Of a stretch of DNA of 64,000 bases, positions 7,886-22,275 are shown one piece after another (the first letter of the stretch is position 1; each line of letters begins with the position of its first letter). Origin of the DNA: Natronorubrum tibetense GA33 (GTDB lineage Archaea; Halobacteriota; Halobacteria; Halobacteriales; Natrialbaceae). Where the stretch lies: NCBI RefSeq assembly GCF_000383975.1, contig NZ_KB913017.1:937133-1001132 (forward strand). Direction: 5' to 3'. The translations under genes and the position numbers were made by a program. The notes below the pieces were generated by a model that saw only the letters and a program-made list of their open reading frames with translations, did not search any database and was not told the DNA's origin.

Positions 7886-9463
7886 ATGGCACAACAGCGA
7901 CGCATGGGCGGGCAGCCTATGTTCATTATGAGCGAGGATAGCCAGCGAACGCAGGGTCGCGACGCCCAGTCGTCGAACATTATGGCCGGCAAGGCGGTTG
8001 CCGAAGCCGTACGGACGACGCTCGGACCCCGCGGTATGGACAAGATGCTCGTCGACTCCGCCGGCGAGGTCGTCATCACCAACGACGGGGCGACGATTCT
8101 CAACGAGATGGACATCGAGCACCCCGCGGCCCAGATGATCGTCGAGGTTGCCGACTCCCAGGAGGAGGAGGTCGGTGACGGAACGACGACTGCGGCCGTA
8201 GTCGCCGGCAATCTGCTCGGCGAGGCCGAAGACCTCATCGAACAGGACGTCCACGCGACGACGATCGTCGAGGGTTATCACGAGGCCTCCGAAATCGCCC
8301 TCGAGGCAATCGCCGAACAGATCAGCGAAGATGCCGTCGATGACGAGGTGCTCAAGCAGGTCGGCGAATCGAGCATGACCGGCAAAGGAACCGGCGGTCT
8401 CACCGCCGAGTCGCTGGCCGAGACGGTCGTCGAAGCGATCCGCCACGTCGAGACCGACGACGGCGTCGCTCGCGACAACGTCACCGTCCACACGCAGGTC
8501 GGTGCCTCCTCGAACGCGACGGAGCTCGTTCCCGGCATCGTCATCGACGAAGAGCCCGCCCACGAGGGCATGCCCAGCGAGGTCGAGGACGCGTCGATCG
8601 CGGTTCTCGACGTCGAACTCGGCGTCCGCACGGGCGATATCGACGCCGAGTACGCCATCGACTCGATCGATCAGCTCAACACGGCCATCGACGCCGAGGA
8701 GAGCGAGGTTCGGGGCTACGCCGAGACCGTCGCCGAGAGCGGGGCCGACGTCGTCTTCACGACCGACGACGTCGACGACCGCGTCAGCAACTACCTCGCC
8801 AACGAGGGCGTCCTCGTCTTCGAGAACATCGGCAACAGCGACGCTCGAGACATCGTCTCCGCGACGGGCGCTCGCCGCGTCGGTGCCCTCGACGACTTAG
8901 AGGAGTCCGACTTCGGCCACGCCGACCGCATCCGGAGCGAGAACTTCGGCGACGACGACCTCGCGTTCATCGAGGGCGGCGCGGCGGCCGAGACCGTCAC
9001 CGTCTTCGTCCGTGGCGGTACCGAACACGTCGTCGACGAACTCGAGCGCGCCATCGGCGACGCACTCGACGTCGTGGCGACCGCACTCGCCTCCGGCGAG
9101 GTCGTCCCCGGCGCCGGCGCGACCGAGATCGCCATCGCGGACAAGATCCGTCAGGAAGCCGCGGGCATCGAGGGCCGCAAACAGCTCGCCGTGACGGCCT
9201 TCGCCGACGCGCTCGACGTGATCCCGCGAACGCTCGCCGCCAACACCGGCCAGGACCCCATCGACGCACTCGTGGACCTTCGTGCCGCCCACGAATCCGA
9301 GGGCCGCGCCGGCCTGATCACCGACGGAGAGACCGTCACCATCGACGACCCATTCGAGTACGGCGTCGTCGACCCTGCCGACGTCAAACGTGAAGCCATC
9401 GAGAGCGCGACCGAGGCCGCGACGATGATCGTCCGCATCGACGACGTCATCGCCGCCGAGTAA
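7886..9463 (+). CDS. cct3: Thermosome (group II chaperonin) subunit, short-tailed
   Basis: 525 residues from ATG 7886. Equatorial-domain signatures are present: [23 protein letters not shown], the GDGTTT nucleotide motif (around residue 95) and the C-terminal [12 protein letters not shown]. It folds proteins in a double-ring ATP-driven chamber. The protein ends at ...DDVIAAE and lacks the Gly-Met-rich tail usual in the main haloarchaeal thermosome subunits, which matches the third, tail-less type (Cct3-like). A good TATA box is at 7844. Confidence 0.93.
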
Positions 9464-9982: not shown

Positions 9983-10879
9983 TCACTCGCTATCAGTGAG
10001 ATCGTTACTGCAGTCAGCGGTAGCCGCGGTCTCGAGAACCACCCGATCGCTAGCCGCGAGTGCGAATGCCTCGTCTCCCCGCCCCCGATTGACATCGAGT
10101 TCTACGTAGCCCTGGCTGCCGACGGTGGCGAGTTTTTCACCGGCGGGGACCGCGGCGAACGTCTCGCCGACGGGTATAGTATCACCGTTCGCGACGATCC
10201 GCTCCCGTCCGGCGAGGAATCCCCCCGGAACGTTCGTGACGACGTTTCCGAAGCCGTCGACGACCAGCACCTCCCCCGTCGCGCAGTCGTGTTCTCCCGC
10301 TGGCCCGGTCTCGAGCGTCGCCTCCGGGAGCACGAGATCAACGGGAGCGCCCGAAAACGGCGCGAGCCACTCGAGGTCACCGAGGGCCTCGAGCGCGGAG
10401 TCATGAACTCCCGCTGCGGCGGGCGCGAAGACATCCCGGCCGTGGAACGTGTTGCTCGCGGGTCCCGCAGTCGCATCCTCCGGGTCGGTGGAATCCGCTG
10501 TCGCCGATCGCTGTGTGCCGGCTGGTTCGACGGGCTCGAGACGACGCTCGTCGATGACGTAGTACTCGAGGTCGGCGTCGCCGGCGAGTCGGCGCGCGGC
10601 GGGGAGCAGGACGCCGTTATCGGGACCGACGAGCGCGTGCTCGCCCGCACGGACGACTAGCGCGTTGCGGTCGGTGCCGACGCCGGGATCGACGACGACG
10701 AGGTGGGTCGCCGGCGGAAAGTAGGGAAGCGTTTCGCGGAGCCAGAAGGCGGCGGCACGAACGTCCTGACGGGGGAAGTCGTGGGCGACATCTACCAGCC
10801 TGCAATCGGTTCGCTGGAGAATAACGCCCTTCATCGCCGCGGGGTACGGCGAACCGAAATCCGACGCGAGCGTGATCAT
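9983..10879 (-). CDS. SAM hydrolase / SAM hydroxide adenosyltransferase (DUF62)
   Basis: 298 residues from ATG 10879 (MITLASDFGSPYPAAMKG). Family marks are the N-terminal TLxxDFGxxY, VDVAHDFPRQDVRAAAFWL, VVVDPGVGTDR and GPDNGVL, and the C-terminal domain with VDGFGNVVTNV. These enzymes split S-adenosylmethionine to adenosine and methionine using water. A low-complexity linker (residues about 125-145) is a haloarchaeal insertion. The frame continues open upstream of 10879 but that part is a shadow of the next gene. Confidence 0.92.
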   Translation of the reverse strand: MITLASDFGSPYPAAMKGVILQRTDCRLVDVAHDFPRQDVRAAAFWLRETLPYFPPATHLVVVDPGVGTDRNALVVRAGEHALVGPDNGVLLPAARRLAGDADLEYYVIDERRLEPVEPAGTQRSATADSTDPEDATAGPASNTFHGRDVFAPAAAGVHDSALEALGDLEWLAPFSGAPVDLVLPEATLETGPAGEHDCATGEVLVVDGFGNVVTNVPGGFLAGRERIVANGDTIPVGETFAAVPAGEKLATVGSQGYVELDVNRGRGDEAFALAASDRVVLETAATADCSNDLTDSE

Positions 10880-17944: not shown

Positions 17945-18320
17945 ATTCCTGCGTAAGTGGTAGGGCCTTGAATAATCGCCGGTCGCCGTTTTCGTCCACT
18001 CAGTCCCAGAAATTCGGAGCAGTCAGCCGCTCACCGGCTCCCACCGATTCTGACGGGCCATCGTAAACGCCGCCGACGCTGGCACCGATGAAGACCACAC
18101 CCTCCCCAGCCGCCTGCGGTCCTCGCTCCATCCGTCGCTGCGGTCCTCGGCCCTCGCACGCCGTCGGCGACGGACCCTCGCTCACTTTTCGAGGTGCTCG
18201 CACGGCTCGCACCTCGCAACGCTCGGCTCCGTCGACAGCGCGCGCCACCGCACGTGGGGGTCGATCGGCCGAAATCTCGGTAGTTGCCCGGGTTCGACTC
18301 GTTCCGATGGCGCAAAGCTT
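17945..18320. other. Non-coding stretch before trpC
   Basis: About 375 bases with no convincing gene. Open frames here are Arg/Ala-rich shadows. The sequence contains low-complexity, dyad-rich blocks (for example GGTGCTCGCACGGCTCGCACC at 18193-18213) of the type common in haloarchaeal intergenic DNA. Confidence 0.5.
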
Positions 18321-18348
18321 TTGTACATATGAGTACGTCGATGTACAA
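18321..18348 (+). promoter_or_regulatory. Candidate trp operator
   Basis: A perfect 8-base inverted repeat, TTGTACAT (18321-18328) and ATGTACAA (18341-18348), separated by 12 bases, ends two bases before the trpC ATG. A third GTAC sits in the spacer, so GTAC occurs at 18323, 18333 and 18343, exactly one helical turn apart. The position over the core promoter fits a repressor site for the trp operon. Confidence 0.6.
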
Positions 18349-18350
18349 CA

Positions 18351-19208
18351 ATGAACTCTCGAACAGATCTCGCGCCCGCGGTGGCGTCGATCCTCGAGGC
18401 CGCCCGAGAGCGGCCGGGAGGCGACGGCCTCGTGGACGTCGACGCGCGATCGTTACCCGATGCGCTCGCGCGCGCGGAGGCCGACGGTCGCGTTCCGGTA
18501 ATCGCGGAAGTAAAGCCCACGAGCCCGACCGCCGACGGCACGCGCGACGACGATCCCGTCGAACTGGCCGAGGCGATGGTTGCGGGCGGCGCGGCGGCGA
18601 TCTCGGTCCTCACCGAGCCGACTCACTTCGGCGGCTCACCCGAGTCGCTGACTCGCATTCGCGATGCCGTCGACGTCCCCGTCCTGCGAAAGGACTTCGT
18701 GCTCGAGGAAGCACAGATGGACGTCGTCGAAGCCGATCTGCTCCTGTTGATCGTCCGGTTCGTGGACGTTCGCGAATCGGACGATTCGCGAGCCAGTCAG
18801 AACGCCGTGCGTTCTGACGCTGATCTGGAAGGACTCATCGCGGCCGCGCACGAGCGCGGCTTCCAGCCGCTGGTCGAGGTCCATGACCGCGCGGAACTCG
18901 AGACTGCCCTCGAGGCCGGTGCCGAAATCATCGGCGTGAACAATCGGGACCTGGCGCGACTCGAGGTGGACCTCGAAACCTTCGAGTCCGTGAGCCCCCA
19001 CGCGAGACAGGCTTCGGACGAGGTAACGCTGATCGCCGAGAGCGGCGTGTCGACCCCTGCGGACGTTCGCCGGATGCGGGAGGCGGGCGCCGACGCGCTC
19101 CTGATCGGCAGCGCGATTATGGACCACGCTTCGGACGACAGCGACGTGGCCGAGAACACCCAGCGGTTGGTTCAAGCGGAAAACAGGGCGAACGGAGGAA
19201 ACACATGA
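18351..19208 (+). CDS. trpC: Indole-3-glycerol phosphate synthase
   Basis: 285 residues. The TIM-barrel family motifs are clear: [60 protein letters not shown] and [12 protein letters not shown]. It closes the indole ring in tryptophan synthesis. Between [10 protein letters not shown] and LEGLIAAA, about residues 142-158, an extra polar segment is encoded by two perfect palindromes (18770-18791 and 18796-18818), not seen in the usual family. The stop overlaps the trpB start by four bases. A candidate operator lies directly upstream. Confidence 0.95.
18770..18818. repeat. Two short perfect palindromes inserted in trpC
   Basis: TCGCGAATCG (18770-18779) pairs with CGATTCGCGA (18782-18791) around a 2-base loop; GTCAGAACGC (18796-18805) pairs with GCGTTCTGAC (18809-18818) around CGT. 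Together they make up an in-frame polar insertion. Confidence 0.8.
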
Positions 19209-20527
19209 GCACAAGCGACCACGATAACGAACGCACTCGAGAGCGCGATAGCGAGGCAACCTTCGGTGACTACGGCGGGCAGTACGTCCCCGAGGCCCTG
19301 ATGCCGGCGGTCCAGGAACTCGAGGACGCCTACGAACGCTACGTCCTCGAAAACGAGGACGGCTTCATGGATGAGTTCCACGACCGAATGCGGGATTTCG
19401 GCGGCCGACCGACGCCGCTGCAGCGCGCGGAACGCCTCAGCGAGCGCTACGACCGCGAGATCTACCTCAAGCGCGAGGATCTGCTCCACGGCGGCGCCCA
19501 CAAACTCAACAACGCGCTCGGACAGGTTCTACTGGCCAAGTATATGGGCAAAGAGCGGATCATCGCCGAGACCGGCGCCGGCCAACACGGCACGGCGACC
19601 GCGATGGCGGCGGCCCACCTCGATATGCCCTGTGAGATCTACATGGGCCGAACCGACATCAACCGTCAGCGACCGAACGTCTACCGGATGCGGATGAACG
19701 GTGCCGAGGTAAACCCGGTCACGGCGGGCAGCGGAACCCTGAAGGAGGCGATCAACGAGACGATGCGCGACTGGGCGACGACCGTCGAACGGACCCACTA
19801 CGTTATCGGCTCCGTGGTCGGTCCGCACCCGTTCCCGAAACTCGTTCGGGACTTCCAGTCCGTTATCAGCCAGGAGGCCCGCAAGCAGATTCGGGAGAAG
19901 GCGGGCCGACTCCCAGACAGTGTCGTCGCCTGCGCGGGCGGCGGCTCGAACACGATGGGGACGTTCCACGAGTTCGTTCTTGACGAGGACGTGGACCTGT
20001 ACGCCGTCGAGGCCGGCGGCTCGAGCCTCGAGATCGACGAGGAAAACGCGCTGGCCCCGAACTCGGCGACGCTCTCGACGGGAACGGACGGCGTGCTCCA
20101 CGGCGCGATGACGAAACTCCTCCAGAGCGAGGACGGGCAAATCATGGAATCACACAGCGTGAGCGCCGGACTGGACTACGCCGGCGTCGGGCCCGAACTC
20201 TCCCATCTCGTCGATATCGGACGCGTCACCCCCGTGAGCGTCGACGACGAGGCGGCACTCAACGGCTTCCACCGGCTCTCGAACCTCGAGGGGATTATCC
20301 CCGCGCTCGAGTCGAGTCACGCGCTCGGATATCTCGAACGCGCGGCGGGACCCGCCGCGGATGGGTCGAGCGGGCAAAGCCCGCGAGACGAGAACGACGA
20401 CGATCTCGGCGAAGTCATCGTCGTCAACGTCTCCGGACGGGGCGACAAGGATCTCGAGACGGTGCTCGAGGAGACGGAGAAGCGTGATCTCGAGGCCGCT
20501 CCCGAAGTGGAGGTGTTCGATAGATGA
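19205..20527 (+). CDS. trpB: Tryptophan synthase beta chain
   Basis: 440 residues. The PLP lysine is in [12 protein letters not shown] (Lys about 100); EGAGQHG-type [12 protein letters not shown], the VGPHPFP block and [11 protein letters not shown] (phosphate-binding Gly loop) are present. It joins indole and serine to tryptophan. Near the C-terminus (about residues 380-400) a non-family insertion carries two palindromes (20341-20359 and 20370-20384), reading through [17 protein letters not shown]. It overlaps trpC and trpA by four bases at each end, so the three are one coupled operon. Confidence 0.96.
20341..20384. repeat. Two short palindromes inserted near the 3' end of trpB
   Basis: CGCGGCGGG and CCCGCCGCG (20341-20359) pair around a single A; GCGGGC and GCCCGC (20370-20384) pair around AAA. 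They encode a Gly/Ser/Ala-rich segment absent from typical TrpB. Confidence 0.7.
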
Positions 20528-21453
20528 CGAGCGAGGATCGACGACTGGAGGGAGGAGAGCCTCGGGAAACGCGAGTGGGGAGCGACGGTGGAAAGCGACC
20601 CGCGAGCGCCGACTACGACAGCGACGTCGAGGCCGCCATCCGCGAGAACCATCCTGCACTCATCACCTATCTCGCCGTCGGCGATCCGTCGATCGAGGAG
20701 ACGAAGGCGTACGTCGAAGCGCTCGACCGCGGCGGCTCGGACCTGATCGAACTCGGCCTGCCGTTCTCGGAACCGATCGCCGAGGGGCCGACGATTCAGG
20801 CGTCGATCAACCGCGCGCTCGAGGCCGGCACCACCTCCGAAGCGTTCTTCGAGTTGGTCGAGGACCTCGAGACGGAGGCGACGCTGCTGGTCATGACGTA
20901 CTACAACAAGATCTTACAATACGGTGACGAACCCGATGTGGGGCCGTTCGTGAAACGAGCGGCGGAAGTCGGTCTCTCGGGAATCATCGTCCCCGATCTG
21001 CCCGCGGAGGAGGCCGACCCACTGCGCGAGGCATGTGACGAACACGGTCTCGATCTGATCTTCATCATCGCGCCGACGACCGAGGGCGAGCGCCTCGAGA
21101 CGATCATGTCTCGGGTCTCTGGCTTCGCTTACGTCCAGGCCCGACTCGGAACGACCGGCGCTCGAGGCGACGTCTCGTCGGCGACCCACGACAGCCTGAC
21201 ACGTCTGTCCGAATACGAGGTCCCCAAGGCGGTCGGGTTCGGCGTCAGCGAGGGCGACCACGCGGCCGAGATCGTCGAGGCCGGTGCCGACGGCGTCATC
21301 GTCGGCAGCGCGCTGATCGACATCGTCGCTTCGAGCGACGACCCCGCGGCCGCACTCGAGGCCAAAGCCGAAGAGCTCAAACGCGGCGCCGTTCGCGGAT
21401 CCGAAACCGTCACGAACGATACGGAAGATGCACCGGAACCAGAACAGCCATAA
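20524..21453 (+). CDS. trpA: Tryptophan synthase alpha chain
   Basis: 309 residues. The TIM-barrel motifs are [35 protein letters not shown] (catalytic Glu and the usual Asp position occupied by Glu in SEPIAEG), [28 protein letters not shown] and [11 protein letters not shown]. It cleaves indole-glycerol phosphate and channels indole to TrpB. An N-terminal polar extension of about 35 residues precedes the family start. ATG overlaps the trpB stop (20524-20527). Confidence 0.95.
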
Positions 21454-21477: not shown

Positions 21478-22275
21478 ATGACTACCACAGGCATCGACGC
21501 ACGACTCGACAGAATCGGTACAAACGACTCGTACGTGATCATTCCGATGGATCACGGCATCACGATGGGGGCGGTTCAGGGGCTGAAAGACATCGAATCG
21601 ACGATCGACGGTGTCACCAGCGGCGGTGCGGATGCGGTCCTCACGCAGAAAGGAATCGCACCTCGCGTCCACGAGCACAAGAACGGAAAAGGGTACATCG
21701 TCCATCTCAACGGCTCGACGACGATCGGTCCCGACGAGCAAGACAAGCGACTGACCGGGACCGTCGAGGAGGCCGTCCGTGTTGGTGCCGACGCCGTCTC
21801 CTTCCACATCAACGTCGGCTCGGACCACGAACCCGACCAGATTTCCCAGCTCTCGGAGATCACGGCGAACGCCCAGCGACTCGGCATTCCGGTGCTGGCG
21901 ATGGCCTACGCCCGCGGTCCGGGCGTCGACTCCGAGGATCCCGAAGCGCTCGGCCACGCCGTCCGTCTCGCGGAAGAACTCGGCGCTGATATCGTCAAGA
22001 CAGGCTACAGCGGCGACGCCGAGAGCTTCCAACACGTCGTGGAATCGACTCGGCTACCGGTCGTTATCGCCGGCGGCTCGAAAGGAACTGACCGCGAGAC
22101 CGTCGAGATGGTCCGCGGCGTGATGGACGCCGGTGGCTCCGGCGTCTCGATGGGGCGATCGATCTTCCAGCACGAGAATCCGGAGGCCATCGCAAAGGCC
22201 GTCGCCGGCGTCGTCCACCACGATCTCTCGACCGACGACGCGCTCGCCAAGGCCGGACTCGCGCTCGAGGCCTGA
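21478..22275 (+). CDS. aroA': 2-amino-3,7-dideoxy-D-threo-hept-6-ulosonate synthase (ADH synthase)
   Basis: 265 residues, class I aldolase-like barrel of the archaeal Fba/AroA' family: VIIPMDHGITMGAVQGL, AVLTQKGIAPRVHEHK, AVSFHINVGSDHE, MAYARGPGV, IVKTGYSGDAESF (Schiff-base Lys) and VVIAGGSKGTDRE. It forms the first intermediate of the archaeal route to 3-dehydroquinate. It lies 24 bases after trpA, so probably belongs to the trp transcript. Its pathway partner, DHQ synthase II, is 8 kb downstream at 30285. Confidence 0.93.
   Translation: MTTTGIDARLDRIGTNDSYVIIPMDHGITMGAVQGLKDIESTIDGVTSGGADAVLTQKGIAPRVHEHKNGKGYIVHLNGSTTIGPDEQDKRLTGTVEEAVRVGADAVSFHINVGSDHEPDQISQLSEITANAQRLGIPVLAMAYARGPGVDSEDPEALGHAVRLAEELGADIVKTGYSGDAESFQHVVESTRLPVVIAGGSKGTDRETVEMVRGVMDAGGSGVSMGRSIFQHENPEAIAKAVAGVVHHDLSTDDALAKAGLALEA

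Follow-up and report, generated by a model that had tools for sequence, protein, structure and literature searches.

A conserved array of TGTACA-like boxes in 10-bp phase over the trpCBA promoter of haloarchaea, a probable tryptophan operator with TrpY as the likeliest binder

The control of tryptophan biosynthesis (trp) genes in archaea is little known. In Methanothermobacter thermautotrophicus, TrpY and its TRP boxes exert tryptophan-dependent repression of the trp operon, and TrpY also autoregulates, the known boxes lying between trpY and trpE; the branches of TrpY with haloarchaeal members were unexamined as of 2019 (PMC6737238). In Halobacterium, all seven trp genes, organised as trpCBA-OE1472F and trpD1FE1G1, are induced in the absence of aromatic amino acids (PMC4162585). 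Here we describe an element directly before trpC in Natronorubrum tibetense GA33, found in a 64,000-nucleotide stretch of contig NZ_KB913017.1 (positions 937,133 to 1,001,132 of the forward strand; hereafter the window, to which positions refer unless another locus is named). We read it from its sequence as a tryptophan operator, in which helically phased TGTACA-like boxes cover the core promoter of the operon trpCBA-ADTH synthase (2-amino-3,7-dideoxy-D-threo-hept-6-ulosonate synthase) and are most likely bound by TrpY, and we give this reading a probability of about 0.7.

A first-pass annotation of the window had noticed three GTAC motifs spaced ten bases apart and ending two bases before an ATG, and this is exact: the cores start at 18323, 18333 and 18343 and the trpC ATG is at 18351. 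The full element is the 28-mer TTGTACATATGAGTACGTCGATGTACAA (18321-18348, leaving two bases to the ATG), which can be written as the palindrome TTGTACAT-N12-ATGTACAA with GTAC in its centre. With up to three mismatches this palindrome pattern was matched once in the window and not at all in 100 dinucleotide shuffles, while across the 4.93-Mb genome the trpC site was the sole match at zero to two mismatches. At three mismatches there were four further places, among them a promoter identified as that of trpD in the operon trpDFEG. The exact series of three GTAC at 10-bp spacing likewise occurred once in the window, and four matches were found with up to two mismatches, against 1.24 expected.

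The array lies within a conserved promoter region on the plus strand, described here with column frequencies from 29 distinct trpC sites. Its 5' end is the motif CGCAAA (18311-18316), which we take from established knowledge of archaeal promoters to be like a B recognition element (BRE); its columns -40 to -36 are conserved at 86-100%, and the following column, -35, is G in 76% of sites and A in the window. Downstream of it, the TATA-like element CTTTTGTA (18318-18325; columns -33 to -29 conserved at 66-100%), a presumed function, overlaps box 1, TGTACA (18322-18327), with G at -28 in 100% and C at -25 in 97% of sites. Box 2 is a degenerate AGTACG with a GTNC core (18332-18337; G-18 and C-15 both 100%), and box 3 is again TGTACA (18342-18347; G-8 and C-5 both 100%), ending three bases 5' of the ATG. 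The conserved block starts sharply at -40, with the BRE-like CGCAAG, runs on through CTTATGTA and ends at -4. A possible box 4, TGAACT (18352-18357), lies over the start codon in the 10-bp phase with one mismatch (core GAAC, 18353-18356; C at +5 in 69% of sites), and the evidence for it is weak because its G belongs to the ATG. Judged by how far the TATA-like element lies from the ATG, the trpC transcript is probably leaderless, and a box 1 lying over the TATA-like element together with a box 3 ending at the apparently leaderless start fits steric repression.

The conservation of the array was assessed in TrpC loci gathered by a protein scan blind to promoters, of which there were at least 47. 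Leaving aside L073, whose start was truncated, and L080, a relative from Methanophagales with 40% identity, 46 promoters were testable, i.e., the window and 45 further loci; starts were re-set from the sequence in L072, L074 and L078, and L077 was aligned at the shared offset of -30, where it had scored lower than at a different offset. The first-pass annotation had named absence of the motif from orthologous trpC promoters as the observation that would speak against an operator, and instead the array was present in 46/46 testable haloarchaeal loci, each at P≤0.05 against shuffles, compared with 0/30 random stretches. Phasing was scored as the best three-box match anywhere from -120 to +5, and the mean across the 46 promoters was 21.4 at 10 bp versus 12.7-14.7 at 7, 8, 9 and 11-14 bp. 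Furthermore, GNNC pairs at a lag of 10 numbered 36 in 14 dereplicated trpC sites, against a shuffle mean of 0.8, and the whole 28-mer, including the spacer, was identical in at least five genomes from four other genera of the family.

A second array was found on the trpD(FEG) promoter, so that the annotation's suggestion to look before other trp and tryptophan-related genes gave a positive result there and, unexpectedly, at tryptophanase too (see below). In this genome the trpD array reads GTAC, GGAC, AGAC, GTAC and GTTC, starting at 8520, 8530, 8540, 8550 and 8560 of locus L082, with a TATA-like CTTAAG immediately 5' of it and the trpD ATG at 8567. An array in 10-bp phase preceded trpD(FEG) at P≤0.05 in 35/35 loci, 30 of them chosen by protein (the best 30 of 64 matching genomes, 69 searched) and five by the array pattern itself, which makes those five circular.

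A profile was then built from 25 trpC and 21 trpD sites. At E≤10 its matches in this genome were confined to trpC (E 2.6e-5) and trpD (E 0.017), with 150 of 657 candidates scored. Among 125 haloarchaeal genomes, at E≤0.1 and with stricter filters, 85 had two matches, 26 had one, one had three and 13 had none; in the 26-genome family, at E≤0.5, the numbers were 20 with two, four with one and two with three, the gene not having been checked for every match in these multi-genome counts. At least two of the 13 matchless genomes (G004 and G044) visibly carry a trpD array (L110 and L108), so a missing match is partly a lack of sensitivity. Two other kinds of site were seen. An overlapping cluster of TGTACA with 8-bp offsets (L009 and L088; G040 contig C55, around 10321-10466 of a 13-kb contig) breaks the 10-bp rule and had no recognised trp gene nearby, and a further palindrome-like match, TTTTACAT...AGTACAA near position 625 of L263 (G143), had no recognised trp gene adjoining and is probably due to chance.

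No regulator was recognised by eye beside haloarchaeal trpC among the open reading frame (ORF) clusters listed for 47 trpC regions (the window and 46 loci, L080 excluded) and six trpD regions, nor by eye among the ORFs preceding trpE in 20 genomes that belong to other families of the phylum. When nine of those 20 genomes were read starting from trpD and trpC, the lead to TrpY emerged, a neighbour in L157 of family f24, where a 173-aa ORF divergent from trpC matches the NCBIfam family TrpY_fam (NF053754) at 187.7 bits (cut-off 180). This genome encodes a single TrpY homologue (G000:C1:1629503-1629988; L180:1513-2013) with 239.2 bits against the same cut-off; its gene is unlinked to trp, and the adjoining ORF was read by eye as hisB. 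TrpY_fam was matched in 287/293 haloarchaeal genomes (284 over the cut-off), nearly always once per genome, in 255/255 good-quality haloarchaeal genomes, and in 107/110 genomes across the phylum (103 over the cut-off). In f24, trpY stands beside the trp operon and divergent from trpC in four of five genomes (G331, G322, G304 and G338); in the fifth, G313, it is on a separate contig. Two of these matches, at 172.7 bits (G304) and 179 bits (G313), are just below the cut-off.

Against Pfam, the TrpY protein of this genome gave a sub-threshold ACT match (23.7 of 27 bits), no helix-turn-helix (HTH) match and no AsnC-family match; its relative in L157, which is 33% identical, gave ACT at 24.5 of 27 bits, also sub-threshold, and HTH_11 at E 0.086. 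Residues D54, R55, V57 and V58 are invariant in 36 aligned sequences, and the stretch D54-V58 is taken for the recognition helix. A search of solved structures with the alignment of TrpY gave no credible relative. The box TGTACA is the same as the TRP box of Methanothermobacter TrpY.

How such an array might work can be proposed as follows. The likeliest binder would be the single TrpY-family protein, with a presumed N-terminal HTH and a presumed C-terminal ACT-like domain. The boxes, one per 10 bp, would all present themselves on the same face of the DNA; at trpC they reach from the TATA-like element as far as the apparently leaderless start, and at trpD(FEG) they begin just downstream of the TATA-like element and extend into the leader. 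Tryptophan, the predicted ligand, would bind in the ACT domain, and TrpY dimers would then sit side by side along the boxes; a filled array is predicted to exclude TBP, TFB and RNA polymerase sterically, turning both trp operons off, and without tryptophan the array would be freed or only partly filled. The first-pass annotation had inferred an operator for a dimeric or tetrameric tryptophan-responsive repressor. The tryptophan operator is supported by a conserved array at trp operons, but a dimer palindrome is too narrow a description of an array with three to five boxes. Its choice of Lrp/TrpY-like regulators as candidates is matched by the one TrpY-family protein in the genome, whose binding is predicted.

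Tryptophanase (tnaA) was picked because the tnaA promoter of Haloferax volcanii, p.tna, is tryptophan-induced, and the analysis was therefore a directed test of one hypothesis rather than a genome-wide discovery. The gene is induced by tryptophan in that species (PMC13147458), p.tna is described as stringently regulated (PMC8305020), and no regulator for it is given in passages of PMC12186497 and PMC10448506. A tryptophanase-like gene was found with TIGR02617 in 110/195 haloarchaeal genomes, none over the cut-off; that of this genome scores 636.2 bits with the broader tryptophanase model NF009709 (cut-off 285). Singly, 10 of 30 fetched tnaA promoters, a set from which that of Haloferax volcanii itself was absent, reached P≤0.05 at 10 bp. 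A box matrix made solely from trpC gave, against shuffles at 10 bp, z 11.7 for three boxes and 14.2 for four in 25 dereplicated tnaA promoters, and -0.1 and -0.5 in 45 trpY promoters, taken as a control. The three-box score was 0.7 against a shuffle mean of -10.5 (standard deviation 0.96), and the other six spacings gave -13.0 to -6.6, the highest of which (13 bp) exceeds the shuffle mean, so this control was not perfectly flat.

The tnaA signal lies away from the core promoter. When the start codon was moved 39 bases inward in 23 tnaA sequences, the signal was found in -130 to -38 (z 13.3 and 13.0), whereas the core from -40 to +10 gave none (z 0.3 and 1.4). A matrix-free count of GNNC pairs in 24 tnaA sequences gave 38 versus 17.0 expected at lag 10 (z 5.1) and 34 versus 14.8 at lag 20 (z 5.0), with lag-10 controls at z -0.9 (coding stretches of eight dereplicated tnaA) and z -0.3 (50 trpY promoters). 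In this genome, the tnaA boxes are GTCC, GCAC, GTCC and GGAC in 10-bp steps (P 0.002); they are weak in sequence and were missed by the profile search. By eye, which is how the TATA position was judged, the tnaA boxes appear to lie upstream of the TATA region.

An array that ends upstream of TATA could allow the bound protein to help recruit the basal machinery, and tryptophan-bound TrpY would perhaps activate tnaA. These fainter boxes suggest one switch for tryptophan synthesis and breakdown. Stated in full, TrpY would be a position-dependent two-way switch that represses both trp operons through arrays from TATA to start and activates tnaA through a degenerate array upstream of BRE/TATA, an extension that we hold tentatively and at somewhat less than even odds. 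The rise of the trp operons without aromatic amino acids in Halobacterium, taken with the tryptophan induction of tnaA in Haloferax, matches the proposed array positions, and the same two operons are concerned.

Arrays were also scored in other families of the phylum, using 200 shuffles per locus and P values uncorrected for the number of loci, with L153 excluded. Among testable genomes with TrpY over the cut-off, 10/18 had a 10-bp array at the first trp gene at P≤0.04 (L150, L151, L154, L156, L158, L159, L160, L162, L166 and L266), and of three genomes without a TrpY match over the cut-off (L155, L264 and L265), one of them 78% complete, none did, a number too small for a conclusion. L161 and L165 had first been scored before trpE (P 0.345 and 0.465), and the promoter of a trpB2-like gene was then scored instead (P 0.000 and 0.055); this gene, named by eye, precedes trpE in L266 and L267 and has phased boxes in its promoter, with the same P values. 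The presence of the same array in other families suggests an old system. The array was not found in the TrpY-bearing genomes of L152, L157, L163, L164, L167, L168 and L169. In L164 (G363), which lacks an array in its trp promoters, two small ORFs lie upstream of trpC and about 0.8-1.9 kb upstream of trpD; by eye one resembles a protein with an ACT domain and the other a ligand domain of AsnC type, a possible lead to another regulator.

Several observations weigh against the reading of the array as a tryptophan operator bound by TrpY. In these other families, 8/18 TrpY-bearing genomes had no array at P≤0.04, including an f24 genome in which trpY adjoins trpC, and the array of L166 is not spacing-specific, scoring 17 at both 10 and 14 bp. 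The divergent trpY-trpC region of f24 has no clear 10-bp array (L157 by score; L157 and L268-L270 by eye). The promoter of trpY has no array either, with 1/61 at P≤0.05, in contrast to Methanothermobacter, where TrpY autoregulates, and autoregulation of TrpY through the array, also considered, is unsupported by this count and by the z scores of the trpY promoters given above. With TrpY present in almost every genome, its co-occurrence with the array carries little information. From the literature, the trp operon of Thermococcus kodakarensis is not under the control of that species' TrpY (PMC6737238), and in Haloferax volcanii the native trpCBA promoter is described as lacking tight regulation (PMC13147458, citing Large 2007). 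In the Halobacterium experiment, aroK, aroA and aroC were also induced 3.6-6 fold (PMC4162585), yet in the genome studied here the profile found no site besides trpC and trpD among the candidates scored, so the aromatic response is wider than the array. Finally, LrpA2 has been proposed as the aromatic regulator (PMC4162585).

The alternative that survives best keeps the tryptophan operator and changes the protein, the boxes being bound by another regulator, most likely of the Lrp/AsnC type, e.g., LrpA2 (Trh1); we regard this as unlikely, if deserving of attention. Members of the Lrp family are able to occupy phased sites as octamers. In Halobacterium, the absence of aromatic amino acids induces LrpA2 14.9-fold, and LrpA2 has been proposed to regulate aromatic biosynthesis (PMC4162585). 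However, a gene's induction does not show that its product binds, and the array is also present in other families that share TrpY. Moreover, TGTACA is the box of a TrpY protein.

It is much less probable that the block is simply an unusual core promoter, with BRE, TATA and the initiation region of a leaderless gene kept for the basal factors. The trpC block does span BRE to start, but such a promoter does not require G/C positions kept at 97-100% every 10 bp down to -5. At trpD, boxes that keep the 10-bp phase are positioned differently relative to the start and follow a TATA-like element of their own, the degenerate tnaA boxes lie upstream of the core, and the profile gave no third promoter in this genome among the candidates scored.

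An element acting in the RNA, as a leader, attenuator or riboswitch, would suit a partly palindromic site near a gene, but we set it aside as highly improbable: the trpC transcript is apparently leaderless and the array extends no further than its start codon, and so would not be transcribed, and 10-bp phasing is the period of the DNA helix. Just as improbable is a Tar-like (MarR-type) activator as in Thermococcus, whose operator TGGACA-N8-TGTCCA has its boxes 14 bp apart and upstream of BRE/TATA (PMC6737238), unlike the 10-bp spacing and the overlap with the TATA-like element seen here; 14-bp spacing scored 14.3 against 21.4 in the 46 trpC promoters, and Tar homologues outside Thermococcales are described in limited genomes only, Korarchaeum and Methylocella being named (PMC6737238), this genome not having been searched for one.

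The array heads an operon on the plus strand that begins with trpC, encoding indole-3-glycerol phosphate synthase (18351-19208; NF041303, 406.4 bits, cut-off 380). It continues with trpB (19205-20527; TIGR00263, 590.3 bits, cut-off 392.45), which overlaps trpC by four bases, trpA (20524-21453; TIGR00262, 236.2 bits, cut-off 102.35) and the gene for ADTH synthase, the first step of the aromatic pathway (21478-22275; TIGR01949, 354.4 bits, cut-off 299.45); in Halobacterium, OE1472F, the gene for the same step, also follows trpCBA (PMC4162585). On the minus strand upstream are a gene with an O6-methylguanine-DNA methyltransferase DNA-binding domain (PF01035; 17474-17944), divergent from trpC, and a TnpB-like protein of an IS605-type element (PF01385, PF07282; 15964-17244), about 1.1 kb upstream of trpC. 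In several relatives, too, trpC has a divergent ORF that by eye resembles the PF01035 gene.

From these results come a candidate regulator gene, the exact position of a probable operator and two to three targets, and the group concerned includes a model species amenable to genetics. If the tnaA part is true, the position of the boxes would let one regulator choose between making and degrading tryptophan, and a regulator would be supplied for the tnaA promoter, a standard expression tool in Haloferax volcanii. Among the literature matches listed, no title or abstract opening describes a haloarchaeal TrpY operator (subscription papers were outside the scope).

Compared with what has been described, the array is like the Methanothermobacter TrpY system in having TGTACA boxes in trp core promoters and in the presence of a TrpY_fam member. 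It differs in that two operons are concerned, led by trpC and trpD, with trpY unlinked to them and without an array of its own, compared with the known boxes between trpY and trpE. There is also an extra array at tnaA. On the haloarchaeal side the boxes are strictly 10 bp apart in three to five copies. LrpA2/Trh1, among the Lrp-like regulators of Halobacterium, is alike in having been proposed for aromatic amino acid control in a haloarchaeon (PMC4162585). We know of no operator for these regulators, and the TrpY of this genome had only sub-threshold ACT matches and no AsnC-family match in Pfam. The p.tna promoter is likewise haloarchaeal and tryptophan-responsive, and homologous tnaA promoters have degenerate phased boxes, but these lie upstream of the TATA region rather than over it, and p.tna is induced rather than repressed. 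Tar (TK0271) of Thermococcus kodakarensis also controls an archaeal trp operon through a pair of palindromic hexamers, but it is an activator whose widely spaced boxes precede BRE/TATA (PMC6737238), whereas the haloarchaeal array covers the TATA-like element and would repress.
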